Shown here one piece after another: positions 20,498 to 51,325 of a stretch of 64,000 nt of DNA (the first letter of the stretch is position 1; each line of letters begins with the position of its first letter). Below the pieces are notes generated by a model. That model was not told the origin of the DNA. It worked only from the letters and a program-made list of their open reading frames with translations, and ran no database searches. The stretch is from positions 1 through 64,000 of IMG/VR virus record IMGVR_UViG_3300030060_002561; one strand, 5' to 3'. Source of the stretch: a virus. The translations under genes were made by a program, and so were the position numbers.

Positions 20498-22063
20498 TTA
20501 CTCGCTCGTAGCAACACCTCCGATTGACAATACATGCCATCTTCCTTTGTATTGGACTGTACCTAGGCTTCTAGCAGATACTGCCAACTCTACTTCAACT
20601 GCACCTTTGTCATCGGGTAGGGGAACTGTTACGTTCTGTACCAAGTAATCATTGAGTTGCAACTTGAGAAGTTCTCCAGAATCCTTGACAAAGGAAACCT
20701 CGATTACTCCACCAGAATGCTCTGTCTCTGTTCTCAACTCATCCCATACCTTGGTGTCTGTGATTAATAGTGTGAATGATGCATCATAGTTTCTCTGTCC
20801 GGGTACGTGCATTGAGGTAACTTCCCGACTGTAATTACCTATGAATCTGTGAGGGGTTATGTTATTGTTGATGGTAATGTTACCATTCTTTACTCTGGCA
20901 AAGGTCTGCCCAAATATCTTGATTGCCCCAGATGAGAACATGAAGGGTTGGTTCTCTGCATCTGTACCGAAGTTAAACAACTCGCTTGCCTGTAGTTTCC
21001 CTCTGTTTGGTATGTGACCATCGAAGGTTGCACTTGCACTTGCACCGGGAACATCGAACGCTCTCCTAGTAACGAAGTCCACGGAAGCCTTGACTTCCTG
21101 CCCTTCCTCAAAGTTGATTGCAAGGGAGTTTACTTGGTTTCCTGTGAATACTCTTGCATACATGTTTGAGTTGTTGGTGTTATCATCAACGACCTCTGTT
21201 GCAGTTCTACCTTCCTTGGCGTAGCACATCTCTATTGCGAATGATGGAAGAGCCGAACCGTTTGCCTCTGTGAATGTATATTCGTACAACTTGCTTTCTA
21301 CCCCATCAGTAATGCTTGATGCGTGAACAAGATGAAAATCTGGGTCTGTGGTATCTGTGCTTTCTCTATATGCTGGAGTTAAACTAGTGTGTATGGGTGG
21401 ATAGAAAGCCCCTCCTATTGCTCGGACAATACTCTCATCGCCGTTATTGACGTATGTTCCTTCGTCAGTTGCATGTATGTGCGTAGCAGAAGTTTCCATT
21501 GTAGCGTCTATTGCATACTTACCTAATGCGTAGTATAGCCAAGAACCATTGTTCAACGCGATGTCAAGAGAACCACCACTTACTGTCTCATTGCCTTTGA
21601 ACTGGAATCCGAAGTTGCGTGTGCTTCCAGTTGCTAGATTCAATTGCTTCATCTCGACTTCTACCGAAGGCGGATTGAATGTATTGACTAGTCCTAGCCA
21701 ATGGTCTGATAGTAGAGTTGTCTTACTACTGTCCTTTGGTCCCGGTACTGGTGCGCCAAACGCTAGAATGACCAAGTTAGCATGGTTATTTCCATCCTTT
21801 ACTAGAGTCTCATCGAATGTGATGGTCGTAGAAGAGTTATCCTTTATCACAAGATATTGGGTAGATGCCGCGGTACCATTGTGAATTTTAGCAACACATC
21901 CCTTGTATAGTCCGGGAACTAAAAGAAAATCTGCCGTTACACCGGCATCAAGTGTTGCTACTGCTCCAGAGATGTCACATTGATGTAGAAAAATGTCACA
22001 CTCCGGGGCTAATGTAGTCATTGCACCTGCGCCAATAAACACCTCATTACTCACTGAAATCAT
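20498..22063 (-). CDS. Major tail (tube) protein
   Basis: A 521-residue, beta-rich protein immediately upstream of the tail chaperone, the normal place of the major tail protein. Segments such as NFGFQFKGNETVSGGSLDIA, INFEEGQEVKASVDFVTRRA and GNITINNNITPHRFIGN match the repeated strand pattern of tail-tube proteins, where a tube domain pairs inner and outer strands. It is longer than usual (tube proteins are often 150-350 residues), so it probably carries inserted surface domains (region about 60-260). No signal peptide or membrane segment is visible. Role: polymerises into the tail tube on the tape measure. Confidence 0.78.
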   Translation of the reverse strand: MISVSNEVFIGAGAMTTLAPECDIFLHQCDISGAVATLDAGVTADFLLVPGLYKGCVAKIHNGTAASTQYLVIKDNSSTTITFDETLVKDGNNHANLVILAFGAPVPGPKDSSKTTLLSDHWLGLVNTFNPPSVEVEMKQLNLATGSTRNFGFQFKGNETVSGGSLDIALNNGSWLYYALGKYAIDATMETSATHIHATDEGTYVNNGDESIVRAIGGAFYPPIHTSLTPAYRESTDTTDPDFHLVHASSITDGVESKLYEYTFTEANGSALPSFAIEMCYAKEGRTATEVVDDNTNNSNMYARVFTGNQVNSLAINFEEGQEVKASVDFVTRRAFDVPGASASATFDGHIPNRGKLQASELFNFGTDAENQPFMFSSGAIKIFGQTFARVKNGNITINNNITPHRFIGNYSREVTSMHVPGQRNYDASFTLLITDTKVWDELRTETEHSGGVIEVSFVKDSGELLKLQLNDYLVQNVTVPLPDDKGAVEVELAVSARSLGTVQYKGRWHVLSIGGVATSE

Positions 22064-22647: not shown

Positions 22648-22855
22648 CTGTCAAAGCCTCCGACATTTTTCTGGCAAACGCCTCATCTGCGGCCTTTAGA
22701 GCCTGTTCATTCAATGCGCTCTCAGATAGAGAAAACTCCCCAAGTCCCAAATCAGCAAGCATGGCGTTTCGCTCTATCTCTCTCTCCGCCGCCTCTCTGC
22801 CTATCTTCAAGGCTTTGAGCAATTTTCTTCTTACTTCTTCTACCATTTGAATCAC
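22640..22855 (-). CDS. Small helical protein in the connector region
   Basis: 71 residues, almost entirely helical and charged (MIQMVEEVRRKLLKALKIG at the start, ending RKMSEALTDG). It overlaps both neighbours by 4-8 nt (ATGA-type at 22855), so it is almost certainly translated. It lies between the head-tail connector and the tail completion gene. It may be a neck assembly factor. I do not recognise a family. Confidence 0.65.
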   Translation of the reverse strand: MIQMVEEVRRKLLKALKIGREAAEREIERNAMLADLGLGEFSLSESALNEQALKAADEAFARKMSEALTDG

Positions 22856-23958
22856 GATATGAAATGGATGATGTTCTTCTTACCATCAATAATCTTGTTC
22901 GCCTCTTCAATTAGTATATCGTGCTTGGTCTTCAAGTCGATGTTTGAACCTGTTTCAGCAACAAGGATAGAATTGTCATCATGCCTAATTACTTCGGCGG
23001 CTACTAGTTTCGTAGCGGCTTCGTGAATAGGTGCAGGTACTCTTCCATCACCTGCGACATATGTGACTCTAATGGAGTGATTCTTGATGAATGGATACTT
23101 ACTATGAAAGAATATCTTACCTTCATGGCTTATCTGCCAGAAGTCATCTAGCCTCCCTTGTGTCTCATGGTCTGTAAATCCAGATACACTTCCGACTCCT
23201 GCACTTCCATCCTGCGTATCCACAGAAGCAATGGTGCAACTAGAGCCATCATCACCCATCAACAACGATGAGATTGTTACCTTGTCACCATCCTTGGTAG
23301 CATAGAAGAAATCAGATATATTTACTGATGTGTTTCCAACGGCAGTCACAGTCTTACGTGCAGTTTCTCCTGTAAACTTAGCCGTTTTCATTGGATATAC
23401 TTCATTGATTGCATCTACCAATTGACTGGCTGTTGTCTTCGGGCCAAAGGAGTCAAAGAAATGAGTTCCCTCTATTATCTCAAAGGTATACGTTCCTGCG
23501 GTAAGTGTAATCTTCCAAGTCTGTGAATTAGTAGTAGCAGAGGATGGCATTGTGATACTAGCAGTAGCAGAAGCCAAGTCCACCCAATCGCTTCCTTGCC
23601 ATATCTCTAACCTCACAAGTTTCTGAACCTTCGGAAATTCCAGTTGAACGAAACCAATGTAATCCCTGTACATAGTTACAGGATACATAAGATGGCGATT
23701 TGCCTCAAACGAAGAAAACTCATCTTTGTAGATTAGTGGTCTGTATGAGTGCTTGGTTGCATCATCTATCTTTTCTTCTACTCTCTTGATGAGTTTACCT
23801 ACCTCTGCTCTCGTTGGTGTAGAGAAGTCTGTAAAGGACTCTATTTGGAGTAAGTTAGAAACATCTGTATGAGTAGTGTAGAATCCATTTCCTATTGTGT
23901 AGTTTGGATTGATAGACGTAAAATCGCTTGGGGAACCTAGTTTAACCATTTTAACCAC
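22852..23958 (-). CDS. Head-tail connector (adaptor) protein
   Basis: 368 residues. The N-terminal part contains TRAEVGKLIKRVEEKIDDAT and the C-terminal part GRVPAPIHEAATKLVAAEVI followed by LKTKHDILIEEANKIIDGKK. This helix arrangement is typical of phage gp6/gp15-like adaptor proteins that sit under the portal. An inserted beta-rich domain (about residues 130-290) makes it longer than usual. It lies next to the tail completion gene, as expected. Function from pattern and order rather than from a database match. Confidence 0.65.
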   Translation of the reverse strand: MVKMVKLGSPSDFTSINPNYTIGNGFYTTHTDVSNLLQIESFTDFSTPTRAEVGKLIKRVEEKIDDATKHSYRPLIYKDEFSSFEANRHLMYPVTMYRDYIGFVQLEFPKVQKLVRLEIWQGSDWVDLASATASITMPSSATTNSQTWKITLTAGTYTFEIIEGTHFFDSFGPKTTASQLVDAINEVYPMKTAKFTGETARKTVTAVGNTSVNISDFFYATKDGDKVTISSLLMGDDGSSCTIASVDTQDGSAGVGSVSGFTDHETQGRLDDFWQISHEGKIFFHSKYPFIKNHSIRVTYVAGDGRVPAPIHEAATKLVAAEVIRHDDNSILVAETGSNIDLKTKHDILIEEANKIIDGKKNIIHFIS

Positions 23959-26887: not shown

Positions 26888-27610
26888 CTATGCAAGCCAC
26901 TTGGCCCAAGCAATGCCCTTACTGACGGCATTAGCAAGACCAAGCCCGCTTGCGGGCGGGGTGTATGTCATCTGACCGGATACAGGGTCTATCCAATATG
27001 GATTGTTCATATTGTCATATCCAGAAGGAGGTACGGGATATCCAGATTGGTTGTTGAATGCCATTTGTTGTTGCATCATCGTGTTGTTCATCTGGACAGA
27101 GGCGTTACCACCTTGTATCATTGATGGGTCTATGCCACTAGGATTGGGCTGACCGGGCATACCACCCACCATTGCTTGCTGTTGTGTGACCTGCTGTTCT
27201 TGTGGCATAGCAAATCCTTGAGCCTCAAGGTATTGCGTCTTAGCCATTCTTCTCTGCATGATGACTTCGGAGTTTATCGCAGAAGCAAGGAGAGTCTGTA
27301 TGTCTAATTCGATGTTTGCCTGTGTGATAGCATTGAGAGCATTGGTAGAATCTACAGATAGAGAAAGATTACCATTGTTGGAAGTCACGAAAGCGAGATT
27401 TGTCAATATCTCACTAACGGTCTTGTTAACCACATCACCCACTAGTTGTGCTAATGCAGATAGAAATGCCTCACCATGATACTGAAAGAAATCCTCTACG
27501 TGATTCTCCTGTAGAGTCAACAGATTGTTCATTGTCTTGAACTGAGCCTGTTGATTACTTTGCATCTGATTATACAGGGAACTATTGCTTGTTCCGAAAA
27601 GCCCCATCAC
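26888..27610 (-). CDS. Gln/Asn/Met-rich structural-region protein
   Basis: 240 residues. The N-terminal 130 are helical, and a hydrophobic AFLSALAQLVGDVVNKTV stretch lies about residues 48-66. The following 80 residues are rich in Gln, Met, Pro, Gly and Asn (for example QQQAMVGGMPGQPNPSG), and the protein ends LGLANAVSKGIAWAKWLA. It overlaps the upstream zinc-protein gene by 4 nt. The disordered Q/N/P-rich tail is like that of some virion assembly or membrane-associated proteins. No family recognised. Confidence 0.7.
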   Translation of the reverse strand: MMGLFGTSNSSLYNQMQSNQQAQFKTMNNLLTLQENHVEDFFQYHGEAFLSALAQLVGDVVNKTVSEILTNLAFVTSNNGNLSLSVDSTNALNAITQANIELDIQTLLASAINSEVIMQRRMAKTQYLEAQGFAMPQEQQVTQQQAMVGGMPGQPNPSGIDPSMIQGGNASVQMNNTMMQQQMAFNNQSGYPVPPSGYDNMNNPYWIDPVSGQMTYTPPASGLGLANAVSKGIAWAKWLA

Positions 27611-28281
27611 GCATCACTCTCCTTAGTGGTGACCTTCGCACCCTCGGTCAATAACGTTTTCACTCGTTGGTTAATTGTATTTTGCTCTATTAGCAACCGA
27701 AACAATTCTTCTTCGATGTTTTCTTGTTCTGCCGTAGGTGGTTTAATTGTCCAACCGACAGAAGAAAGTGACATGATATCAGTTTCTTTCAAGGTAGTCA
27801 AAGGACCAGAGGACAATGGATTCAGAGTCTGCATGGATGGGGTCTTAGGTATGTATGCGCTGAATGACAATCCATGTTCCTCTGCTAGTACCTGTTGCTC
27901 TAGCATCTCGTATTGCCTGTGTATACCTGCATGTTTCTCGCAGTAGGTTCCTCGCATTGGGTATCCCTTGCGAACCTTGTGTAGTGGTAGAGGTGGTCGA
28001 AGATTATCACTTGCATCCCAGACTTTGTGTGTACCACACACCACACATCTATCTTTGATGTTGTACTTGAATCTGTATGGTATCTTTAGGAATGTTTTCT
28101 TCTCAGGTGTTAGTACCTTGATTATCTCTTTCAATTGTTTCTTTGGCTTGACGCTCTTGTATTCATATTGCATTATGGAACCCGCGCTTCTAGCATGTTC
28201 CATTCTATCCATGAATGCCGTATTGGTTACATTCGTTGTCGAAGAACCTATCAAACTTGGTGGTTGGAATGACATTGACAT
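27607..28281 (-). CDS. Zinc-finger protein next to the GTPase
   Basis: 224 residues with a likely zinc site: C79-x2-C82 (RCVVCGTHKVW) and C114-x2-H117, with H121 nearby (GTYCEKHAGIH). A helical C-terminus follows (EEELFRLLIEQNTINQRVKTL). It follows the GTPase gene by 12 nt and overlaps the next gene by 4 nt, so it belongs to the same translational group. It could be an adaptor for the GTPase or a nucleic-acid-binding virion protein. Family unknown. Confidence 0.72.
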   Translation of the reverse strand: MSMSFQPPSLIGSSTTNVTNTAFMDRMEHARSAGSIMQYEYKSVKPKKQLKEIIKVLTPEKKTFLKIPYRFKYNIKDRCVVCGTHKVWDASDNLRPPLPLHKVRKGYPMRGTYCEKHAGIHRQYEMLEQQVLAEEHGLSFSAYIPKTPSMQTLNPLSSGPLTTLKETDIMSLSSVGWTIKPPTAEQENIEEELFRLLIEQNTINQRVKTLLTEGAKVTTKESDA

Positions 28282-28293
28282 ATGTTCACCGAA

Positions 28294-28965
28294 CTAGTAG
28301 TCCTTTATCATGGTTAGGACACCTCTGTAGACCATCTCAGAGTCTGTCTTGGCACTTACTATGTATTTGTAACAAGGAATTCCCTTGTCGTTTAATCTTT
28401 GAATGCCATCTCTGAATGCAGAGAAAATAGGATGCTGTTCTATTGGCCCATCATGTTCATACTTGTCTTTCCACAAGTCATACTTGTTAGCCCATATTCC
28501 TACTGCTACTGGATAGTCTGATTCTCTTTTCTTCTTTCTCTTACCATTGATGTTCCATTCTGTACTGCAAATTGTATCCACTAGGAAAGTCCAACACAGT
28601 TGTTGTTCGATATCATAATGCTTGTCCATGTGTCTATCATCCATCATGAAGATGATGTACTTGACTCTTCGATTCCTCATATCGTTTAACCAGTCATTCC
28701 AGTATACCGTCTGTCCACCTACATCAGCAGTCTTCACAGTATGTGCATCCCCGTCTAGTTTGACGTACTTCCTACTTGCACGTTGCAATCCTTCTGTCCT
28801 ATGTCGAATATCTGGAACATCACCTCTCGTTCTCAACTGGTGATTCATAGTGGTCTTACCTGCTCTGGTAGCACCATATATTCCGAAGTTGATTGCATGT
28901 ACACGTTGGTATAGTTTGTTAAGTCCCTCGACTATCAATATGGCAAAACCTGCCATTACTGACAA
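28294..28965 (-). CDS. Arf-like small GTPase
   Basis: 223 residues with the full set of GTPase motifs. G1 is GATRAGKT (31-38), G3 is DVGGQ (81-85, the exact Arf/Sar form with the catalytic Gln), G4 is NKYD (160-163) and G5 is SAK (204-206). A Thr at 57 may serve as G2. The N-terminus has a hydrophobic/amphipathic helix (MAGFAILIVEGL, 4-15), as in membrane-associated Arf proteins. A Lys/Arg-rich insert (GKRKKKRESD, 141-150) precedes G4. It lies among virion genes directly after two small membrane-protein genes (4-nt gap to the nearer one). It probably binds GTP at a membrane. A viral use in membrane remodelling, virion assembly or blocking a host GTPase is inference. Confidence 0.82.
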   Translation of the reverse strand: MSVMAGFAILIVEGLNKLYQRVHAINFGIYGATRAGKTTMNHQLRTRGDVPDIRHRTEGLQRASRKYVKLDGDAHTVKTADVGGQTVYWNDWLNDMRNRRVKYIIFMMDDRHMDKHYDIEQQLCWTFLVDTICSTEWNINGKRKKKRESDYPVAVGIWANKYDLWKDKYEHDGPIEQHPIFSAFRDGIQRLNDKGIPCYKYIVSAKTDSEMVYRGVLTMIKDY

Positions 28966-28969
28966 GATA

Positions 28970-29194
28970 TCACCACAGATGGTCCCAGAAGTCTACTAGG
29001 CCATTCCAAGCCATTGATAGGGTGTTGATTCCATAAACCGCTAGGAGTTGTCCAAGTGCAAAACTACTCAGACAGAAGATTCCGCCCCATAGGTAGAACC
29101 TAGCCCTAAGAAACCAGATATCAGCAGAGTGCGCTCTTTGTAGGTCATATGCAAGGGTTGACTCATCCATTCCAAATAGGATTTCGCTTACCAT
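28970..29194 (-). CDS. Small single-span membrane protein
   Basis: 74 residues with one clear membrane segment (about 33-54, FYLWGGIFCLSSFALGQLLA) and a second, amphipathic and Trp-rich C-terminal region ending WNGLVDFWDHLW. It lies between another membrane protein and the GTPase gene, 4 nt from the latter. It could recruit the GTPase to a membrane. No family recognised. Confidence 0.72.
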   Translation of the reverse strand: MVSEILFGMDESTLAYDLQRAHSADIWFLRARFYLWGGIFCLSSFALGQLLAVYGINTLSMAWNGLVDFWDHLW

Positions 29195-29209
29195 ACATAT
29201 TCCTCACAT

Positions 29210-29617
29210 CTACTGGTTTTCAAGTGTTAAGAACGCAGGAGTCATTGTCTCTGGTTCTTCGGCCTTCACCGTTGGAAGAGTAGTATCCCCGTAGGGAGTG
29301 TAGTTCTGCTGGAAGCGAGCCATCGACTCTCGCACTCTTCTCTTGTTTTGCTCTTCTCTTTCCTTCCTACCCCAGTAACCATCAATGGCTCTCCTAAGTA
29401 GACCTTCCTCAATCATATCGCTAAGGAACACATCAAATGCCACTTTGACAACAAGTATCCCACCTACCGTACTAATGCCAAATAAGATGGCATGTGCTTC
29501 TGGCCCGTATGGGAAGGATATCCCGTACTGTGAGTATGCGAATACATTCACACCACACATAGAACCTACGAACAGTATCGCCATAATCATGCGGGTGTCT
29601 GTTTCTAGGCTTGGCAT
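29210..29617 (-). CDS. Two-span membrane protein
   Basis: 135 residues with two predicted membrane segments (about 10-28, MIMAILFVGSMCGVNVFAY, and 42-63, HAILFGISTVGGILVVKVAF) and a charged C-terminal tail (RRAIDGYWGRKEREEQNKRR onward). It heads the group of membrane protein, membrane protein, GTPase and zinc protein. The two spans with both ends on the same side suggest a small membrane anchor or pore, but the size and charged tail do not match a known holin family. Function unknown. Confidence 0.75.
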   Translation of the reverse strand: MPSLETDTRMIMAILFVGSMCGVNVFAYSQYGISFPYGPEAHAILFGISTVGGILVVKVAFDVFLSDMIEEGLLRRAIDGYWGRKEREEQNKRRVRESMARFQQNYTPYGDTTLPTVKAEEPETMTPAFLTLENQ

Positions 29618-29626
29618 ATTTTTTCC

Positions 29627-29938
29627 TCAACTATAGTTAACGGTGACTGCAACAGTAGCACCTGACGCAGTTACATCTACTAGTATTCCATCTGATAGCA
29701 AAGCCCCATGAAAGTCATGCTCTAAGTTCGTTACTGCGTTTGGTAGGTATATTCTTGCTATCTCGTCAGCACTAACCTTCGTTGTGTCGTGACTGTCATA
29801 GATGTTAACTGTCGCAGTAGAACCACCATCAGAACTGATATGAATACTGTTTAATCTAACCTTCTGTGGAGACTTACCACCAACTACAACAACGTTGTCT
29901 GGACTAACTAACAGTTTGCTAGTTGCTACTGTGGTCAT
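29627..29938 (-). CDS. Small beta-rich virion protein
   Basis: 103 residues, nearly all beta strand (VRLNSIHISSDGGSTATVN, VTASGATVAVTVNYS). This pattern is typical of minor capsid, decoration or tail-adaptor proteins. It overlaps the upstream gene (SAP-domain protein) by 4 nt and lies in the capsid block. No enzymatic motif. Confidence 0.68.
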   Translation of the reverse strand: MTTVATSKLLVSPDNVVVVGGKSPQKVRLNSIHISSDGGSTATVNIYDSHDTTKVSADEIARIYLPNAVTNLEHDFHGALLSDGILVDVTASGATVAVTVNYS

Positions 29939-30462
29939 CCTTCTGCCTCCAATAGCGCATCAATTAGAATCGACTTCTTACCATCTGCCTTGATTCCTCT
30001 CTCATCGAGTAGAGCCTTGAGTTGCTTGTTGGTGAGTTTCTCTAGATTTGGTGGCAGAGGGGCAAGGACTTCCTTTTCTTCCTTGACTGGCTTCTCCATT
30101 TGAGGATGAATCTCTTCCTTAGCCTCTGGTAGTTTCTCCGGCTTGGGCTTGGCCTTACCACCGAAGAACGACTTGCTCTTTCCGAATATTTTCTCAACCA
30201 TAGTCGGACCATCATCATCCTCGGTCAATTTATCATAGTGACCAACTAGATGGCTTCTCTTGTACTTTGACATAGTAGCCAAGTCCTTCTCATCGTTTGA
30301 GTCTAGGACTACTGTGTAGTTGTCATCTCTAAGAAGCGAACTAGCATACCTCAAGGGTATGTCTACGTCTTGTTTGTATCCTACAACGTATCTGTCAGTA
30401 CCGAAATTTATTCTCATTGCTCGACCATTCAATGGTCTGTTCGTTAGTCTAACCTTAGCCAT
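29935..30462 (-). CDS. SAP/HeH-domain protein of the capsid block
   Basis: 175 residues if translation starts at the ATG at 30462, which has GGTGAG just upstream; an in-frame ATG at 30522 has no such site. The N-terminal half is a small beta domain (RLTNRPLNGRAMRINFGTD), and the middle is a Lys/Pro/Glu linker. The last ~33 residues (LTNKQLKALLDERGIKADGK then SILIDALLEAEG) match the SAP/HeH helix-extension-helix fold, often found in DNA-binding proteins and in phage head-region proteins. It could contact DNA at the portal vertex or act as a small head protein. Confidence 0.72.
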   Translation of the reverse strand: MAKVRLTNRPLNGRAMRINFGTDRYVVGYKQDVDIPLRYASSLLRDDNYTVVLDSNDEKDLATMSKYKRSHLVGHYDKLTEDDDGPTMVEKIFGKSKSFFGGKAKPKPEKLPEAKEEIHPQMEKPVKEEKEVLAPLPPNLEKLTNKQLKALLDERGIKADGKKSILIDALLEAEG

Positions 30463-30491
30463 ATTCTCACCTAGTAATAGAGGGTAGCGAC

Positions 30492-30518
30492 CCCCTTCCT
30501 GATGTTCTAGGAAGAGGG
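30492..30518 (-). terminator. Hairpin between capsid-block genes
   Basis: CTTCCT (30495-30500) pairs with AGGAAG (30509-30514), extended by CCC/GGG with one bulge, in the 75-nt gap between two genes. It is followed by no T-run on the minus strand, so it may be a processing site or a partial terminator that separates the very highly expressed capsid gene from downstream genes. Confidence 0.4.
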
Positions 30519-30537
30519 CCACTACTTTATGTTTTAC

Positions 30538-30921
30538 TCAGAGAAGGCCGTAAACTCGACAGCGTACCGCACCGTAATCTGTGGTTCCGGTATGCTCTGC
30601 TATCTCGTTACTTACTTCGTGTAGAACGTTCAGAACGAACGAGGTCGTAGAAGCAGATGCTCCGCTTCCTGTGTTCGTTGTGTACGAGCCTGTTGACAGT
30701 ACCTCTGGTACAACTAGTGCAGTAAATGTGTCCTGACCAGTCACCATTACTTGGTGTATGGTGCTTAGTCCACAATCTGCGGCATTAACCAGAAGCCCTA
30801 CAGCATCCGTAGCCGGGTATGCACCCAAGTCTACTAGGATGTCCACGAAATACTCGTCACCTGATACTCTAGGCGATGTCATTCCCTTGTGGTCTTCAAG
30901 TATGGTTACTGCGGTTGCCAT
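30538..30921 (-). CDS. Small protein after major capsid gene, possibly decoration
   Basis: 127 residues, beta-rich and Thr/Ser/Gly/Ala-rich (GSYTTNTGSGASASTTSFVL). It lies directly downstream of the major capsid gene with an 11-nt gap, where many HK97-type viruses encode a decoration or stabilising protein. It contains two cysteines (NAADCGLS and AVRCRVYG). Role inferred from position and composition. Confidence 0.65.
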   Translation of the reverse strand: MATAVTILEDHKGMTSPRVSGDEYFVDILVDLGAYPATDAVGLLVNAADCGLSTIHQVMVTGQDTFTALVVPEVLSTGSYTTNTGSGASASTTSFVLNVLHEVSNEIAEHTGTTDYGAVRCRVYGLL

Positions 30922-30932
30922 TCACAACCACC

Positions 30933-32354
30933 TCACGCAGACTTTAGGTTGGTTATCTTACCTTGTCCCTTGAAGAACGAGCAAGCAGTCTCGCCCATGG
31001 TTCTGTACAGACCTGTGTTACCAAGCCTGTCAACACCGAATGGGTTGCCGTTAGCGATACCATCCTCAAAGTATTGAGTAGGCTTCATCACACTCATCCA
31101 CAGATGGTCTGTGTCCAGAAGAAGGATGTCGCTCAATCCGTTGGTAACTGACGAAGCAGTTGTGGATGGCATGTCCTTTGCTGGTATGATGGGTATGTCG
31201 TAGTAGGTTGCTACACGGAAACCGACTTCAGCACCTTTGGGTCCACGGACACCGTTGTGGGTAGGTACAATCTCCTTCCTGTCCATGAACCTCTCTTGGC
31301 TCTGTAGTAGGTCCGAGATGTGCTGGATAGTATCGTATCCAGTAATCATTACCTTCGGGTTTCCACCGTTCTGCCTTATCTTCCTAATCATGTCGTTAAG
31401 GATGGATAGAGTTAGAACCCTAGCAGATGCGTATGATGTACCGAAGTCAACCTCTGCATCTAGGTAAGTCCTGTCTCCAGTATTGTTTATCACAACATCG
31501 TCAACGCTTCCTGCGTCACCACCATCGGCGGCAGACGTAACTTCTCTGTCTGTTCCGAAAATCTTCCTTACTGCAAGGGAGATGTCGGTTACACCAGTAT
31601 CGTTCTCGCTCCTAGCCGTTATGTTGTCTAGGTACATCTGTCCGATTTCCTCGGCAGATGAGACAATCTTGTGGAGCGAAGTGTAGTTCTCCATAACTCC
31701 AGTCTTGTTGCTGTCTGTGATGTCATCTCCGTTGACTGCGCCATCGACATCCGAGTATCGCTCTAGTGGCATCAGAAGCATAACGTTCTGAACCTCTGCG
31801 TGGTGCTTACCCATGTCCTCTCTAACGATAGAACGAATGTCACCTACACCGTCATCAATAGCGGCCATCTCCATACCAACCTCTGAGAACTCAAACTTGT
31901 GAGCAATCGTCTTAGGGCTGATGTAGAGTTTGGTGTACTCTGGAGATAGAGCAGGGATGTCTGCTAGAGCCTCGTTCTCTGTGACTCCACCTAGTCTGTC
32001 TGCTCTAGGGGTTGCAGAACCTGCGGCTCCGCTTCCTACTCCGAAGGCGGCAGAAGCCCCACCGGATGGTCGGCTTCTTAGAACCCTCCAACCAGAGGAA
32101 GTGTAAGGTCGCTTTGCCATCATCGAAAGTGCGTTAACTTCCTGATTCAGCATTGACCAAACCTTCTGTCCGTATAGGACTCCGTATAGGTCGGACAATC
32201 CAGTGGCGGCAGTAAAGTCTCTGCCACTTGCATCGTGTGGTGTTCCAAATCCTCCGACTACACCTGCGCTCTTTAGTAGTGCATTGCCCTGTGCGCCCCT
32301 CATTCCATAGGTTGCGGCTTCAAGGTCTTTCATTGTCTTAATATATCCAGTCAT
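30933..32354 (-). CDS. Major capsid protein, HK97-fold
   Basis: 473 residues, located directly after protease/scaffold as in HK97-type viruses. Features include a helical N-terminus with short Gly-rich stretches, GVLYGQKVWSMLNQEVNALS (N-arm to E-loop region), and the long helix VREDMGKHHAEVQNVMLLM. NGGNPKVMITGYDTIQHISDL and GFRVATYYDIPIIPAKDMPS are typical of HK97 capsid A-domain segments. The gene has few overlaps and base composition suited to high expression. Proteolytic maturation near the N-terminus is likely given the adjacent protease, but the site cannot be placed. Confidence 0.85.
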   Translation of the reverse strand: MTGYIKTMKDLEAATYGMRGAQGNALLKSAGVVGGFGTPHDASGRDFTAATGLSDLYGVLYGQKVWSMLNQEVNALSMMAKRPYTSSGWRVLRSRPSGGASAAFGVGSGAAGSATPRADRLGGVTENEALADIPALSPEYTKLYISPKTIAHKFEFSEVGMEMAAIDDGVGDIRSIVREDMGKHHAEVQNVMLLMPLERYSDVDGAVNGDDITDSNKTGVMENYTSLHKIVSSAEEIGQMYLDNITARSENDTGVTDISLAVRKIFGTDREVTSAADGGDAGSVDDVVINNTGDRTYLDAEVDFGTSYASARVLTLSILNDMIRKIRQNGGNPKVMITGYDTIQHISDLLQSQERFMDRKEIVPTHNGVRGPKGAEVGFRVATYYDIPIIPAKDMPSTTASSVTNGLSDILLLDTDHLWMSVMKPTQYFEDGIANGNPFGVDRLGNTGLYRTMGETACSFFKGQGKITNLKSA

Positions 32355-32356
32355 AT

Positions 32357-33031
32357 TTAATCACCCCTCGCTAGGTTGTGTATATCTCCCCATGACAGAC
32401 CGTGTGCATCCTCAACTGATGTTGGGAAGTTTTCGGGTAAGTCAAAGGCGACTTCCTGTGCCTTGCGAATTTCTTCATCCTTCTCAGTGAGAGACTTTCT
32501 CAACTCAGCAAACTCTGCCTTTAGTCCAGCAACGTCTGCGCGAGCATCGTACTCGCTTCTCTCTGCGGCGGATTTCTTCAAAGCAAGTTCCTCTTGGAAC
32601 CTAGCACCGAAGGTTTTGCTTAGGTTGTCGTAAGCAAGTTTCTCCAATTGCTCTGCTTTGAAAGCCTCGTAAGCCTTCTCTACGTTCTCGGCACTGAGGT
32701 CCAAAGTAGAGAAATCAGTCGATTCTAGACCCTTAGAGACTGTGAGTGGTGGAGGTGTTGCTTTGGGTGAACCACCGCTAACAACTTCCTCTCCCGCCTC
32801 ACCATGTTCTCTTGTGGTGTCCTCATCGAGTGCCTTCTCTTCCTTGTCCTCGTCATCATCCTCTTTGTATGACATGTCGCCCATCAGTTCTTCTTCCATG
32901 TCATCGCCTTCATCGGCTTTCATTTCGGATGTTGCCATCTTTTCATCTTCTTCTTCTTCCTTGTTAAGTTGCTCAACCTGCTTCATTAGGCTGTTCAACT
33001 CTTCAAGTGCTTTTTCCAGTTTTTCACTCAT
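32357..33031 (-). CDS. Nested scaffold protein from internal start in protease gene
   Basis: The internal ATG at 33031 (Met185 of the protease, start MSEKLEKALEELNSLMKQ) is preceded 8 nt upstream by a strong GGAGGTGA at 33047-33040. Translation from it gives a 224-residue acidic coiled-coil protein lacking the protease domain. This is the same arrangement as lambda C and Nu3, where the scaffold is made from a nested start in the protease gene. It overlaps the protease CDS completely and in frame. Confidence 0.7.
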   Translation of the reverse strand: MSEKLEKALEELNSLMKQVEQLNKEEEEDEKMATSEMKADEGDDMEEELMGDMSYKEDDDEDKEEKALDEDTTREHGEAGEEVVSGGSPKATPPPLTVSKGLESTDFSTLDLSAENVEKAYEAFKAEQLEKLAYDNLSKTFGARFQEELALKKSAAERSEYDARADVAGLKAEFAELRKSLTEKDEEIRKAQEVAFDLPENFPTSVEDAHGLSWGDIHNLARGD

Positions 33032-33583
33032 ATTGTTTTTCACCTCCGACTCTTGTTTCAAGATGTCGAATTTCGCTTCCGGGTTGATTCCTTTCTCGCA
33101 GATTGTGACTTCATGTAATTCCAACTTATCTATTTCGTTGTATTCTCCATACTCGTCAGATGTTCTCTGCTTCTTAGAAATCGCTTGCCCTCCTATACTA
33201 AATGACCTAAGTGTTCCTTTTCGGATGTTTCTAGAGATTTCCTTCGCTTTTTCTATGTCATCTCTCATTTTGATAACGACATAGAATCCAACGTCATCCA
33301 CACTTGTTTTGTGTAAGATTCCGTTTTTATCACGATATTTCTCTACTACCTCCCCGACTTGAACATTTGAATGGTTTGACATTACATTTCTGTACTTCTT
33401 CTCTCCCATGTATTTCTTGACTGCTTCATCCAATGCATCTAGTGTGATAAGGTCGTTTTGCTTGTCAACGATTTCTATTGATGCATATCCTCCTATTACT
33501 AATCCGTCAGACTTCAGTATACTAAATTCTCTTTCCTCATTTGCCTTTAGTAGCAGTTCTCCTGATGCTAACACTTTCGACAC
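32357..33583 (-). CDS. Prohead protease fused to scaffold
   Basis: 408 residues. Residues about 20-175 show the S78-type prohead protease pattern: VIGGYASIEIVDKQNDLIT, the catalytic His in MSNHSN (His71), Ser129 in SFSIGG, and LHEVTICEKGINPEAKF. From about 185 on the chain is an acidic, Glu/Lys-rich coiled-coil scaffold (KLEKALEELNSLMKQVEQLN and a poly-acidic run). It ends with SWGDIHNLARGD, a C-terminal motif also seen in a small gene at 37.0 kb. The protease would cleave scaffold and capsid delta regions during maturation. An in-frame internal start is likely (see 32357-33031). Confidence 0.85.
   Translation of the reverse strand: MSKVLASGELLLKANEEREFSILKSDGLVIGGYASIEIVDKQNDLITLDALDEAVKKYMGEKKYRNVMSNHSNVQVGEVVEKYRDKNGILHKTSVDDVGFYVVIKMRDDIEKAKEISRNIRKGTLRSFSIGGQAISKKQRTSDEYGEYNEIDKLELHEVTICEKGINPEAKFDILKQESEVKNNMSEKLEKALEELNSLMKQVEQLNKEEEEDEKMATSEMKADEGDDMEEELMGDMSYKEDDDEDKEEKALDEDTTREHGEAGEEVVSGGSPKATPPPLTVSKGLESTDFSTLDLSAENVEKAYEAFKAEQLEKLAYDNLSKTFGARFQEELALKKSAAERSEYDARADVAGLKAEFAELRKSLTEKDEEIRKAQEVAFDLPENFPTSVEDAHGLSWGDIHNLARGD
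33040..33047 (-). promoter_or_regulatory. Internal Shine-Dalgarno for nested scaffold
   Basis: Minus-strand GGAGGTGA, 8 nt before the ATG at 33031, inside the protease coding region. It is the clearest internal ribosome binding site I saw in the capsid block. Confidence 0.65.
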
Positions 33584-33604: not shown

Positions 33605-36199
33605 TTAATCTGATTTTTTAGTTGGAAATGACAAATCTGCGTATTTATCTTCTGTAATATCCCAGAGTTTTGTATCATCCTTCATATCCAACATCTCTTG
33701 TTTCTTACCTGTCCAGACAATCCAAGTCTTCTTCTCATCTAGAGGTACAACTCTAACGTGGAATCTAGTATCGAACTTGTCACCTTCTAGTTTGTATTCA
33801 TGGTATCCTTCTTTCTGTACACCTAGTATTAACTTACCAGAATCTATCTCCTTCTTATGTTGACCTAACCGTTTTCCTACAATAGCAGGGAACTTCCCAG
33901 ACTTACCAAACAAGTCGTATATGTCCTCACTGTTTTCTATATCAATCTCCCAGAAGTTTCTCTTGTCATTAACATCCATGATGAAATCCAAGTTGCCATC
34001 TTCTCTCAAGATGATGCTAAACGAACCTGTTTCTCTTTTTTTTAATTCCTCGACATCCTTCTCTAGTACATCTGGTATGGCAGTAAACTTGTTGGGATGA
34101 TGATATCTCAGACTATCCTGCTTCTTCATCCAAGTCATCAGATTCTCATCGCTACTCTGGAAAACCTCTTCGTATGTCTCTGGGAACTCCTTCTTTACGA
34201 AATCAACTATCTTAGGAAAGGCAGTTGGTTTGTTCTTGTATATGTCTATTATCTCATTCTTGATTGCGATTCTTAATTCTGACCTTCTGGTTTTCAACAT
34301 CCTCTCTAGTTCAGACTTCCACATGTCTAGATTGTACAATGCGTTCTTCTGCATAAGTGAATCACCTTCAAATCCATATATGGTGAAACCATCAAAGTCG
34401 CTCTTCAAGATTATCTCAGCAGTACCATGTATGTCATCAGTTATCATATACGACTTCTTTTCATTGGTCTTGTCCTTTATTCCAGTTGTGATATTGAACG
34501 GGCTGAGTTGTCGAACCCCAATCATAGCATCTGAAGTCAATGATTTCTTGGTCTTGGTAGATAACTTCTCCAATGTGGATAGTTTGTCTGACTGAGTTAC
34601 TTCTGGTATCTCTATCACTTTAGCAGAGTAGAGATTGAATCCCTTCTTATTCTTCTTGACTTCATCCACCTTGACTCTAACTATGTCTCCGACACTTACC
34701 TTTACCTTGGTGTTGAGTGCCTTACCAACTGAAACATATGCCTTGTCATCCATCTCCGTAGTTGTATAAGTCCTAGCCTCTTCCGCAGTAATCGGGCCTA
34801 CTCCCATAGTGTAAGTATGCATTCCATTGTTAGTGGATTTCTTATCTAGTACAATAACATCCAAGTCAACGAACTTTTTCCACTTAATCCACTTCGGATT
34901 CTTCTTCTTTGTAATTGGATATGTTGACTCCATATCCTTGATTACCACTCCCTCCGATGCAGGTAGTTCCATGATATCCTTCGCATACTCTCCTACTTCC
35001 TTGATTGAGTCTGCGACTCTGGTATCTTTCTTCGATGGGAATGCGAGAGAATCAGATGAGTGTTGACTGAATTGGTATAGAAGGATGTTATGTCTCTCTC
35101 TCAATGGTTCATCATGAATGTCCTTGCCCTCATGTTGCATTATGTCAAACACATGCGCTCTTAGTTCTCCACCTTTCTTGTTCTTGAAAACATGAGCAAT
35201 GGTAGAAGCCCGATGTAGTGGTTCATCATCCTCAAACAGAACCAACTCTCCATCTAGTATACAATCCCCGAACTGCTTCTTCCTTAGTTGCTCGACTTGC
35301 TTCTCACATTTGTCAGTAATATCCTTCTTGTTGTATGAGTATACCTTGATGTTATCCTTCTTCTTGTGAAGTTGTATTCTCATGCCGTCATACTTCTCTT
35401 GAACCAACCACTCTCCAGTAAATCCCTTCAACTCCTTCAAGTCATCTAACTCAAATATCCTGTACATCGGTTTGTTTGGTATGATGAAATCTATTTCCGA
35501 TTTCTCATCTACACTCTTCTCGTCTTCGCTCTTCTCTAGGTCTAACTCAACTAGATTGTCCCATTGTTCATCTTCGTATACGCCATTGAACATCTTGTCG
35601 AGTCGCTTCAATGCTCCCTTGAACTTTGACTTGATTCTGCTTTGGTCTTCATCTTCTGCCCCATAGTGTTCTATGATGTAGAGAGGTATGTCATCCATCT
35701 CTAAATCCAATCCCATTGCACCTTGAGTGACATTATCTCCCTCCATGTCGTGTTCTTCCCATATTTTATCGGGAAGTGCATTGGAATGGGAACGTAGTGC
35801 ATAGTGAATAAATGCAATGAAGAGTCTGTCACTCTCCAATAGGGTGTTTATCACATCCCCTTCAAACTTCTTGGAGAACGGGTCGCTAACTTTCTTGGAC
35901 TGGAACCTCATGTCCTTGACGGCTTCGTATACCTTCTTGGCTTCTAGAGTGGTTGGGTCTTTAGCAGACTTGTCGAATAGAACCTTCTCTTCTAGATACT
36001 TCTTCAATTCCTCAGACAGTTTGTTTAGTGAGTCGAAGTCATCTCTGATTTTATCTATGACTTCGTGCCATTCCTTCTCATACTCTGCTTTGTCCTCTCT
36101 GGCTGAAAGATAGGCGTATCGTGTCTTCTCAAAGAAATCAAGAATTGCTCTAGTCAAATCCTCAGTTTCTTTCTCAAACATCAATCCTGTTTCAACCAC
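33605..36199 (-). CDS. ATP-dependent DNA ligase with long C-terminal extension
   Basis: 864 residues. The nucleotidyltransferase core is clear: motif I EKYDGMR with the adenylated Lys269, motif III ILDGELVLFED, motif IIIa AHVFDIMQHEG, motif IV SEGVVIKDME, and motif V KWIKWKKFVDLDVIVLD. An OB-fold follows (VSVGDIVRVKVDEV). The N-terminal ~235 residues are helical, probably the DNA-binding domain of archaeal-type ligases (family usually ~560-600 residues). The C-terminal ~280 residues are extra; part of them (YKLEGDKFDTRFHVRVV) recalls the LigD phosphoesterase fold but lacks its HDA/HYD motif. Start GTG at 36199 has AAGGTGGG upstream. It joins nicked DNA; why it sits among late genes is open. 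Confidence 0.88.
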   Translation of the reverse strand: MVETGLMFEKETEDLTRAILDFFEKTRYAYLSAREDKAEYEKEWHEVIDKIRDDFDSLNKLSEELKKYLEEKVLFDKSAKDPTTLEAKKVYEAVKDMRFQSKKVSDPFSKKFEGDVINTLLESDRLFIAFIHYALRSHSNALPDKIWEEHDMEGDNVTQGAMGLDLEMDDIPLYIIEHYGAEDEDQSRIKSKFKGALKRLDKMFNGVYEDEQWDNLVELDLEKSEDEKSVDEKSEIDFIIPNKPMYRIFELDDLKELKGFTGEWLVQEKYDGMRIQLHKKKDNIKVYSYNKKDITDKCEKQVEQLRKKQFGDCILDGELVLFEDDEPLHRASTIAHVFKNKKGGELRAHVFDIMQHEGKDIHDEPLRERHNILLYQFSQHSSDSLAFPSKKDTRVADSIKEVGEYAKDIMELPASEGVVIKDMESTYPITKKKNPKWIKWKKFVDLDVIVLDKKSTNNGMHTYTMGVGPITAEEARTYTTTEMDDKAYVSVGKALNTKVKVSVGDIVRVKVDEVKKNKKGFNLYSAKVIEIPEVTQSDKLSTLEKLSTKTKKSLTSDAMIGVRQLSPFNITTGIKDKTNEKKSYMITDDIHGTAEIILKSDFDGFTIYGFEGDSLMQKNALYNLDMWKSELERMLKTRRSELRIAIKNEIIDIYKNKPTAFPKIVDFVKKEFPETYEEVFQSSDENLMTWMKKQDSLRYHHPNKFTAIPDVLEKDVEELKKRETGSFSIILREDGNLDFIMDVNDKRNFWEIDIENSEDIYDLFGKSGKFPAIVGKRLGQHKKEIDSGKLILGVQKEGYHEYKLEGDKFDTRFHVRVVPLDEKKTWIVWTGKKQEMLDMKDDTKLWDITEDKYADLSFPTKKSD

Positions 36200-37009: not shown

Positions 37010-37237
37010 CTAACTCATCCTCTCTACCATAGTGTGAATGTCATCCCAATCCATCTTCGCAATTGTATCTCCTGTAGGCAACTCTCCACCTTGAGCCATT
37101 GCGGGAGTTGGAGTGTCAACCACAACCATTCCACTCTTCATCAATAGATTATCCTTGTGATAAACTGCATCTTCTAAATTCTTTACCTTGTTTACTAATT
37201 CTTTCAATAGTAGCATCATTTCATTGTCTTCTGTCAT
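37010..37237 (-). CDS. Small protein ending in W-x-D-I-H motif
   Basis: 75 residues: helical N-terminus (LLLKELVNKVKNLEDAVYH), a Pro/Gly/Thr-rich linker, and the C-terminal helix DWDDIHTMVERMS. The last helix resembles the end of the protease/scaffold protein (SWGDIHNLARGD). It overlaps the next gene by 4 nt and abuts the previous one. Perhaps it binds the same partner as the scaffold C-terminus, for example the capsid shell; this is inference. Confidence 0.65.
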   Translation of the reverse strand: MTEDNEMMLLLKELVNKVKNLEDAVYHKDNLLMKSGMVVVDTPTPAMAQGGELPTGDTIAKMDWDDIHTMVERMS

Positions 37238-37563
37238 TTCTTCCCATCTCCTTTCTTCTTTGGATAAATCATATTTCTAATCTGACCGTAGAGAACCTCG
37301 TAGTCCTTCCTTAGTTCTGCGGCAGAGGCAACTATTTCTAGGTTCTTCTCATCGAACGATTCTATTTTCTTGTTCAGACTCTCATCGCCCTTCATCATAT
37401 CCAGTGATTTCATCTCTGTAATCAAGTCACCTAGTTGTGTCATGTCCTTTCCGAAGAACTCAGTAGGTTGAGATGATTGCAATAGTTTCTTGACTCTCTT
37501 CTTTTCCTTCGGGTCTAGTTTCTCCAGTATCGGACTAGCCTTTAGAATAGATTGCCAACTCAT
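37234..37563 (-). CDS. Small helical protein with N-terminal W-motif
   Basis: 109 residues starting MSWQSILKASPILEKLD. Its first seven residues match the motif M-S-W-x-x-I-L-K shared by many genes here. The rest is helical and charged, ending with a Lys-rich tail (IYPKKKGDGKK). It overlaps its neighbour by 4 nt. No known family. It may be an internal head protein carrying a targeting tag. Confidence 0.7.
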   Translation of the reverse strand: MSWQSILKASPILEKLDPKEKKRVKKLLQSSQPTEFFGKDMTQLGDLITEMKSLDMMKGDESLNKKIESFDEKNLEIVASAAELRKDYEVLYGQIRNMIYPKKKGDGKK

Positions 37564-37570
37564 TTTTTAA

Positions 37571-37981
37571 TTACCTCGGTAGATATGGTTGTCCAAAGAC
37601 CTCTTCCCTTTGTTTGCTTCTTTCCTCATAAGTTGGTTTAGGTTTGATTTTCTTACGTTCATGTGACATACCTTGCTTTTTGAGTGCTTTCAAATCTTTT
37701 ATGAATTGAGAAAATGTCTCGTATAATTTGTTATTCTGGTCAACATCATACTTGTATGATTCTAGACCAGACATATTCATGTACGGATTGTCATCATAAT
37801 ATCCTTCTTTCTCTTTCCTTTCTACACGTTTTTGCGCCTGTGTTAATACCTTCTTGTACATAGGCTCTATCGAATCTATCATTTCATTTATTGCATTGAA
37901 ATCTTCCATATCTTTAGGTGCATACTCTTCTGCTATCTCTCTTTCAAGAGGTGAAACTTTGATTATATCTTCCCAACTCAT
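37571..37981 (-). CDS. Small helical protein with N-terminal W-motif
   Basis: 136 residues starting MSWEDIIKVSPLEREIAEEY, with the common N-terminal W-motif, followed by a helical charged body and a Lys/Arg-rich end (ERKKIKPKPTYEERSKQREE). Separated from the next gene by 7-8 nt. No family recognised. It resembles its neighbour at 37.2 kb in layout (tag, then helical charged body), suggesting a diverged pair. Confidence 0.7.
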   Translation of the reverse strand: MSWEDIIKVSPLEREIAEEYAPKDMEDFNAINEMIDSIEPMYKKVLTQAQKRVERKEKEGYYDDNPYMNMSGLESYKYDVDQNNKLYETFSQFIKDLKALKKQGMSHERKKIKPKPTYEERSKQREEVFGQPYLPR

Positions 37982-48700: not shown

Positions 48701-48713
48701 CATCAACCGTCAT
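45708..48713 (-). CDS. Very large helical protein, possible internal virion protein (1001 aa)
   Basis: Start taken at the ATG at 48713, which shares an ATGA overlap with the upstream stop; an ATG at 48737 would overlap by 28 nt. The protein is Lys/Glu/Asp-rich, mostly helical, with many short hydrophobic helices and no transmembrane segment. A Ser/Gly-rich basic stretch (GGSGKGSKSGTGSDKGRYL) lies in the C-terminal half. An R-x-x-I-x-x-F-x-N-x-V pattern recurs. No family recognised. With the 634-residue gene upstream it looks like a pair of large virion proteins, perhaps injected with the DNA. Confidence 0.75.
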   Translation of the reverse strand: MTVDESEFAMWLKSSMDEIEDFYLAQIGKEYLEGGSKYNPRNIKQDLPKGQELTGDNLDSVFQAQIGEQIDGELDVLMENKKREYKREKDLLYRYLIDDSNGFTSTKKDESKLILSVDGDYTVQPHIGETVRDIQSKGLLFDDFKDAIRPLLKTTLRGTNIGKSLFEEQLRYAVTQLSGEKGMKAGDLTSSFEGDVQAVTRVLGRFINLVSSKPMSVSERKQVMQGERDASGFVYRPEDKTQARQHLRVMEDQTSSQLEPLTNQIRQFIEEDEEADIKITRASISGEYLIGDLNLADLESRDEIYKYWEGVATKDFKNLQTKYDDLRKAFLKHKDILIGEGENLNEPLSELIDEYLEFDAKFESAYDDGMNYVLPFKASPMQAAAKDSSDKVRTLFDTFLREMNLVDTGSKTELDMETLRERLLEIGAVERDETRTTVTQRGQGEDETTSASARTEIGTDGKRPIEDAGAQYRLARQSEKARYLESIGETVREIDELIEAKEKFDFDALAEDVDPLFAYAFSKDGSAFKNTAILERELNKLKIGLETNIFGLDLDYDERITDWIESLSKVATQGDTRQIYYLPLSATLEEIILGKSRESKGKALFRIIEAVSPRRLETNKKNISQFLELMASFVEKGDRRSGPSSSVRTKTSQQAITTDPMGIDSIFPARSNDESYLNDIQTVRREFDDLLDAVIDYYVIPIEGMYMPFDDDSSFISEQTSGGVFGALTKGMVDDGLFAVMAKEKEDGTFVDREDIIDFADVLKTLSEPSFAENAKGFKSIIVDLQKDVMIRVFGQSPKSTLGERMKEELGSYFFHMAKRNNVDGYEDILLWNTPARVWKDRHKENPRKAAAPFISFVNHVRRNAGGSGKGSKSGTGSDKGRYLREKGRGSDDSELREALQVFNEIRERFNITKSIEEMRVLAAHDGIRKMLGKPIYYGTSNLDDFGHIAKAQDTLVKSYNVDISAVEIENIVNEFDSMESLAKKYGVPSDSVYYLKANFR

Positions 48714-50616: not shown

Positions 50617-50913
50617 CTATTCCTGCCTTGACTTCTTATTCCTTTCTTTTATTCTAGCCAGAAGTTCCGCTTCATTCTCTTTGGTTCTCTTGGCGGCTTC
50701 TTCATCTTGACCTGTAGATGGCGTTGTAGATACTCTCTCCTGTGGTGTCTTAGACTCCCCCATGACATGTCTCACGTATTGTTGAATTTCATCCTCAGTT
50801 AACGGTTCTGGTCGCACAGCAATCCCTAATCTCTTTGCATCTTCCCTAAAGTTACCACTAGGTACGAAATCCTTTGGCAATTCTTTTTTCTTTATCACTT
50901 CTTTCCATTTCAT
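50617..50913 (-). CDS. Small protein with N-terminal W-motif
   Basis: 98 residues starting MKWKEVIKKKELPKDF, a version of the tag (W-K-E-V-I-K). The C-terminal half is a charged helix (ENEAELLARIKERNKKSRQE). Separated from the next gene by 2 nt. No family recognised. Confidence 0.65.
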   Translation of the reverse strand: MKWKEVIKKKELPKDFVPSGNFREDAKRLGIAVRPEPLTEDEIQQYVRHVMGESKTPQERVSTTPSTGQDEEAAKRTKENEAELLARIKERNKKSRQE

Positions 50914-50968: not shown

Positions 50969-51325
50969 TCATTCTATGTACTCACCTTTGACTTTCTCAT
51001 ATACTCTACGAACCTCTTCCTCATTCTCATACTCACCGTTAGGATACATAGTTACGGGGTTAATAGCGTAATCTGCTACTTCTTCGTCTGACATCGTTCT
51101 CCACGTATCTTCTATCTCCTTGGCATCCTTAACAGGGTCCAATTTTTCCATATACTCTATGAATTCATAGAATTCCTTTGCCTCTTCTGCTCTACTACCG
51201 TCTTCAACAGGACTTTCATACCTTCTAGCAAACACATACAAGTCGTATATGAAAGCCTTGTATATCTCTCTGAGCATTTCATTTAGTGAAATTTCCTCCG
51301 CTTTCAGAATATCTTTCCAACTCAT
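50969..51325 (-). CDS. Small acidic protein with N-terminal W-motif
   Basis: 118 residues starting MSWKDILKAEEISLNEML, one of the best matches to the tag. The rest is acidic and helical, rich in Glu and Tyr (VYEKVKGEYIE at the end). It overlaps the zinc-finger gene upstream by 4 nt. Charge and size fit a small internal protein. No family recognised. Confidence 0.7.
   Translation of the reverse strand: MSWKDILKAEEISLNEMLREIYKAFIYDLYVFARRYESPVEDGSRAEEAKEFYEFIEYMEKLDPVKDAKEIEDTWRTMSDEEVADYAINPVTMYPNGEYENEEEVRRVYEKVKGEYIE

Follow-up and report, generated by a model that had tools for sequence, protein, structure and literature searches.

What does a tailed virus of archaea do with a small GTPase that is encoded beside two membrane proteins and a zinc protein, in the midst of its head and tail genes? 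A preliminary description of the 64,000-nt stretch of DNA analysed here (the window, which belongs to an 82.7 kb IMG/VR record) had noted a cluster of four such genes with small gaps between them, and had taken their products for a two-span membrane protein (TM2), a one-span Trp-rich membrane protein (TM1W), a GTPase and a Cys/His zinc protein (Zn protein). All four open reading frames are present on the minus strand where they had been placed, with intergenic gaps of 15, 4 and 12 nt, and the assigned identities are borne out by hydrophobic spans, G motifs and a C-x2-C-x31-C-x2-H motif. The cluster had also been described as embedded in head and tail genes, which is correct: the capsid and protease genes lie upstream, and a neck-adaptor homologue and the tail tube gene lie downstream. 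The features of the region are as follows.

32357-33583, upstream of the capsid gene: protease, upstream of the block
30933-32354, minus strand: major capsid protein, HK97/SU10-type (profile matches); the fixed landmark upstream of the block
29627-30921, minus strand: fast-varying genes from the capsid to the module, encoding a 127 aa protein, a SAP-domain protein and a 103 aa protein
29210-29617, minus strand: TM2, two-span membrane protein of 135 aa (hydropathy), without Pfam or PHROG family
28970-29194, minus strand: TM1W, one-span, Trp-rich small membrane protein of 74 aa (hydropathy), without family
28294-28965, minus strand: Ras/Arf-superfamily GTPase of 223 aa with G1-G5 intact (motifs, profiles, model)
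27607-28281, minus strand: Zn protein of 224 aa, C-x2-C-x31-C-x2-H (motif), without family or fold match
26888-27610, minus strand: fifth module gene, 240 aa (conservation in relatives)
22852-23958, minus strand: neck/adaptor-position homologue of HCTV-1 gp117 and HVTV-1 gp125 (E 4e-21); the fixed downstream landmark
20498-22063, minus strand: tail tube protein (PF18906), downstream of the block

The fifth gene overlaps the stop of the Zn gene by 4 nt, and across relatives the same junction is mostly an overlap of 1 or 4 nt, which suggests translational coupling. Because this open reading frame overlaps the Zn gene and is equally conserved, the unit comprises at least five genes. The SAP-domain protein between the capsid and the block (29935-30522) is found in about half of the relatives.

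The virus encodes an SF1 helicase, an RFC-like clamp loader, a TFB-like factor, ATP-dependent ligases and a ribonucleotide reductase, and the Druskaviridae have related capsid and portal proteins. Six relatives of 93-103 kb matched the PolB family as two adjacent pieces; PolB is not present on the window's own 82.7 kb contig. PolB is labelled as two pieces in the magrovirus family Aoguangviridae (PMC10768690), and the Magrovirales are characterized by a two-part PolB, their own clamp loader, TFB, SF1 helicase and ligase, genomes of 90-110 kb and a Druskaviridae-related capsid (PMC10768690, PMC12999244). On these shared genome features, rather than by direct comparison with classified exemplars, the virus is a magrovirus-like marine archaeal member of the Caudoviricetes, and its host probably belongs to the Poseidoniales. 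Magroviruses are reported throughout the surface ocean and are abundant marine viruses of archaea. Two ATP-dependent DNA ligases were noted, one of 864 aa in the structural operon by the protease and capsid genes (window 33605-36199) and a second, conventional one in the replication half (G000 73327-74886, locus L162). A ThiF/E1-like protein and a nearby JAB/JAMM-like peptidase (G000 70235-71780, locus L162) resemble a ubiquitin-like conjugation/deconjugation pair, here encoded by an archaeal virus.

The distribution of the block among relatives confirms the grouping. A search seeded with the GTPase yielded 149 relatives, and in the 80 examined TM2, TM1W and the Zn protein were found 78, 79 and 79 times, respectively, the absences being consistent with contig edges. 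Because this first set had been picked via the GTPase, the search was repeated with the capsid as seed, counting loci with at least 4.2 kb downstream; all four genes, in the order TM2-TM1W-GTPase-Zn, are present in 51 of 51 such loci. The complete ordered block is likewise found in 69 of 69 loci of a second clade (60% GTPase identity), and a third search, with capsids ranging from haloviruses to marine viruses, recovered all four genes in 25 of 25 further marine loci with enough sequence. Of the halovirus and intermediate loci, which have the capsid gene in common with the marine group, 20 were compared and none carries any gene of the module. Contigs partly recur between these sets, which together hold 168 distinct GTPase proteins. 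Strand and gene order are kept wherever a relative has room for the block, far above chance. The check put forward in the preliminary description, a search for the same four-gene order in relatives, thus came out clearly positive, and its contrary case, genes occurring apart or a GTPase unlinked from the others, was not seen; several clade-2 loci keep the order but have further open reading frames inserted. The block is a lineage-wide trait of the marine group, and related viruses fill that slot differently.

Sequence conservation within the block was compared over 60 dereplicated loci. On average over all pairs, the GTPases are 71% identical, followed by the capsid (64%), the fifth protein (61%), TM2 and the Zn protein (55% each) and TM1W (53%), in contrast to 41% and 37% for two genes just upstream. 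Among the neighbouring genes compared, the GTPase is therefore conserved best, ahead even of the capsid, and the expectation that gene order and GTPase motifs would be kept while neighbours vary proved right. More specifically, the genes immediately flanking the block on either side (g30538, SAP, g23951) are lost or replaced while the five block genes remain, and in several clade-2 loci extra open reading frames are inserted between block genes with the order unchanged. No gene fusions that would reveal partners were found in the compact loci checked.

The GTPase begins with a TTG start codon, with an in-frame ATG three codons further, and in the window its G motifs read GATRAGKTT, RTEG, DVGGQ, NKYD and SAK. 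The P-loop core, the switch I Thr, DxGG, NKxD and SAK are all invariant among the 168 distinct GTPases. The residue after DxGG, the catalytic Gln position of switch II (residue 85, window 28711-28713), is Gln in 47 and Glu in 121 of the 168, and because of this predominance of Glu the chemistry of hydrolysis is not standard. Since this intact GTPase is more conserved than the capsid and G1-G5 are invariant in 168 proteins, it is presumably an active, essential-looking switch. Residues 3-22 are predicted to form a hydrophobic to amphipathic helix (hydrophobic moment 0.30-0.41 in the window), which in clade 2 is hydrophobic enough for a short membrane span or anchor. A Gly2 myristoylation site is absent, position 2 being Ser in 21 aligned members and in the clade-2 members examined.

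Profile searches gave best E-values of 4e-5 to 1e-3 (Arf, Roc, SRPRB, MMR_HSR1, small_GTP), with scores below the curated cut-offs where these were shown. For Arf (PF00025) the window GTPase reaches 16.6 bits against a cut-off of 22.3 and the best member E 3.8e-5, other GTPase families being similar; SRPRB (signal recognition particle receptor beta) is matched weakly by 20 of 21 members, at E 1e-4 at best. An AlphaFold model of moderate confidence (pLDDT 62) aligns at Z 9.8-9.9 with Arl3 (9.9), Arl6, the Asgard GerdArfR1 (9.8), Gtr1 and Galpha, and has a Foldseek match at E 2e-5. According to this model the protein has the Arf/Arl/Galpha fold of the Ras/Arf superfamily (P-loop, TRAFAC). A dynamin-like large GTPase was considered and dropped, as 223 aa is too short for a stalk. 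Nothing convincing was found for the GTPase in 50,697 phage records, no match in plasmids and no family in PHROG; the predicted viral structures that match it better are giant-virus GTPases of the Ras type. Strict peptide patterns run against cellular genomes found homologues on only two contigs, of a 'Maricaulis' MAG (L160 and L161; NZMJ01000101.1, NZMJ01000024.1), and these are misbinned virus contigs that carry the ligase, protease, capsid and the whole block. Judged by its sequence, the GTPase is a new, divergent family of a known superfamily, and no curated family claims it.

The membrane and zinc proteins have no convincing match to a known family either. TM2 has hydrophobic spans at residues 10-28 (KD 1.92) and 43-61 (KD 2.13), a charged tail of some 70 residues at the C terminus and the conserved pattern DTRx3MxxLFVG...FGxxTxGxI...D..IE..LL.R.I...W.RK. 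TM1W has a single span at 38-56 (KD 1.71) and five Trp among its 74 residues, and directly before the span lies a near-invariant N-terminal segment around RAHSAD, which may be a natural docking site for a partner. Neither membrane protein matches a Pfam or PHROG family, holin families included. Of 175 Zn proteins, 172-174 retain each of the ligands C79, C82, C114 and H117, and the C-terminal half of the protein is helical; no convincing Pfam, PHROG or NCBIfam relative was found, and a fold search against the PDB gave no match below E 5. Two identities were tried for it and rejected. None of 21 Zn proteins matches OapC (PF09845) at E<1. An ArfGAP finger is a CX2CX16CX2C zinc finger with an Arg finger, whereas the spacing here is C-x2-C-x31-C-x2-H, and there is no Pfam ArfGAP match. 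The fifth protein has a helical N-terminal half, a Gln/Asn/Pro-rich middle and a conserved tail, GYPxPPxGxD...YWID...SGLG...AWAKWL.

Several known systems resemble the block in part. In Haloferax volcanii, the archaeal GTPase of ArvA-ArvB-ArvC (OapABC) drives vesicle budding with a zinc-ribbon partner (PMC10927574). The viral block shares with ArvABC a small GTPase with a hydrophobic or amphipathic N-terminal helix, an adjacent zinc protein and a proposed action on membranes, and the best Pfam neighbours are PF00025 and PF01926, a likeness by description and profiles. Unlike ArvABC, the block has no match to OapB (PF09846) among its neighbouring genes and none to OapC (PF09845), and its genes sit in a structural operon; conversely, no membrane-protein partners are described in the ArvABC operon (PMC10927574). 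With Arf, Arl, SAR and the Asgard ArfR (PDB 8oum/8oun) the GTPase has in common the fold, G1-G5, the position of a predicted, putatively membrane-binding N-terminal helix and the DxGG of switch II, but it falls below the Pfam gathering score, lacks Gly2, has a longer stretch between switch I and switch II and a basic insertion before G4, and in most members Glu replaces Gln. SRPRB is also an Arf-like GTPase with N-terminal membrane attachment; however, no SRP receptor alpha partner is seen in the block, and the genomic context is viral. The Ras-type GTPases of pithoviruses and Bodo saltans virus are likewise small, virus-encoded and similar in fold, yet those viruses infect eukaryotes and identity is 12-16%. 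We know of no comparable gene block in giant viruses.

The closest comparison of position is with the Druskaviridae HCTV-1 and HVTV-1, in which homologous capsid, protease, neck adaptor and tail tube genes flank the same slot. This slot holds a one-span membrane protein (HCTV-1 gp116, HVTV-1 gp124), and these viruses, in contrast to the marine group, have no homologues of the GTPase, the zinc protein, TM2 or TM1W. Intermediates likewise encode small membrane proteins with a single span between capsid and neck (L271:14377-14801, L275:2176-2415, L278:11035-11322). The five proteins are partly coiled-coil, none of them has a Pfam holin match, and they are putative candidates for archaeal holins. 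The preliminary description had suggested a membrane-remodelling or entry/exit system not described for tailed viruses, and, as to the latter point, the absence of a PHROG family and of matches in the phage records agrees with it. No literature on GTPases in magroviruses was found, short of a possible annotation in the tables of Philosof 2017 and Prabhu 2025. Within the literature short of those first magrovirus papers' tables, no viral system was found that matches the five-gene set.

The answer that we favour, at a probability of roughly 0.4, is that the block encodes a putative membrane-bound small-GTPase machine for virion release, late-expressed, virus-encoded and specific to the magrovirus lineage. 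A membrane-remodelling role is plausible. The machine is favoured by the invariance of the block, the intact, conserved GTPase with its predicted Arf/Arl/Galpha fold and hydrophobic N-terminal helix, and its two integral membrane partners. The block is a good candidate for the means by which these viruses affect the host membrane and probably exit across it. In such a mechanism, TM2 and TM1W would form a membrane platform, on which the GTPase would be held by the hydrophobic helix at its N terminus and by the invariant cytosolic segment of TM1W. Regulating or reading the GTP state would fall to the zinc protein, and a GTP-driven assembly would bend or open the membrane of a host that should have no peptidoglycan to digest, so that finished virions leave; we infer that expression is late, that the machine docks at the membrane under regulation by the zinc protein, and that it acts as infection ends. 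Exit is favoured because most archaea lack a peptidoglycan-like wall and, according to a 2015 review, no lysis mechanism, holin or membrane disruption was known for archaeal tailed viruses (PMC4456609). It is also favoured because archaea bud vesicles with a small GTPase that has a zinc-ribbon neighbour (PMC10927574), and because the same slot in haloviruses and intermediates holds small single-span membrane proteins; this last argument is limited, since those proteins are themselves only putative holins.

Conservation cuts the other way. In tailed viruses the genes for lysis are usually variable and quick to evolve, so that a GTPase more conserved than the capsid weakens the case for exit, and a structural or assembly role fits this conservation as well or better. 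A membrane-tethered assembly step is therefore a serious rival, even if we consider it somewhat unlikely. TM2 and TM1W would anchor, at the cytoplasmic membrane, a factor under GTP control that sets the timing of head completion, neck attachment or prohead assembly, the GTPase being a checkpoint and not a membrane cutter. The block lies exactly between the capsid and the neck/tail genes in every relative, conservation above that of the capsid is typical of core morphogenesis, and a fifth protein whose gene overlaps the Zn gene is co-conserved. However, related haloviruses make the same head and neck without the block, and no GTPase is, to our knowledge, known to act in the assembly of tailed-virus heads.

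Control of the host is a less probable explanation, and we regard it as unlikely. The block would hijack or block vesicle budding, membrane traffic or envelope defence, or exclude superinfecting viruses, in keeping with the occurrence in archaea of vesiculating GTPases of the ArvA type that have a zinc-ribbon partner (PMC10927574). Host-interaction genes are, however, normally variable and patchy, whereas the block is universal in its lineage and lies within a structural operon. Moreover, a strict peptide-pattern scan found no homologue in host genomes, and a search of defence families gave no convincing match, only weak hits to single domains and none for the GTPase or the Zn protein.

Slightly less likely still is a role in the virion or at entry, in which the particle or tail would carry the membrane and zinc proteins, these would build a channel or fusion site at genome delivery and the GTPase would act in the new host. 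The head/tail setting, the two membrane proteins and the extreme conservation agree with such a role, but a switch that cycles with GTP could hardly be operated from outside the cell, the block bears no resemblance to tail fibre or baseplate families in Pfam or PHROG, and we know of no precedent. That the genes have no joint function, and are merely inherited together as one region of a strictly conserved late operon whose other genes are also syntenic, is very improbable, given that the five stay together while g30538, SAP and g23951 come and go and that clade-2 insertions leave the set unbroken.

The release machine, if real, would give tailed viruses their first small-GTPase membrane system, and would represent a principle of lysis or budding unlike both holin-endolysin and the archaeal pyramids. 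The fuller statement, that marine archaeal tailed viruses exit by bending or opening the membrane with an Arf-like switch, a platform of two membrane proteins and a zinc regulator, is offered more tentatively. A universal, conserved GTPase-membrane block makes the exit of tailed viruses from wall-less archaea a testable question. It also adds an unusual Arf-like membrane GTPase system, in archaeal viruses, which bears on the spread of such switches.

A separate observation concerns the N-termini of late proteins. Six window proteins, largely unrelated in sequence, start with M(S/K)Wxx[IVL][LIV][KR]:

37234-37563, 37571-37981, 48710-50614, 50617-50913, 50969-51325 and 51983-53215, minus strand: open reading frames with the N-terminal tag

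Over the marine loci, the tag M(S)Wxx[IVL][LIV][KR] begins 181 distinct late proteins, any other residue in the W position being found in at most 14; none was found in halovirus and intermediate loci. M(S)WxxILK looks like a shared targeting tag, perhaps for packaging into the head, for which T4 uses such a tag, or for other sorting. The open reading frames inserted between block genes in clade 2 begin MW..ILK; tagged ones (MWKDILK...) sit in the TM1W-GTPase and GTPase-Zn gaps of L194, L212, L223, L226 and L242, as if cargo genes land there.
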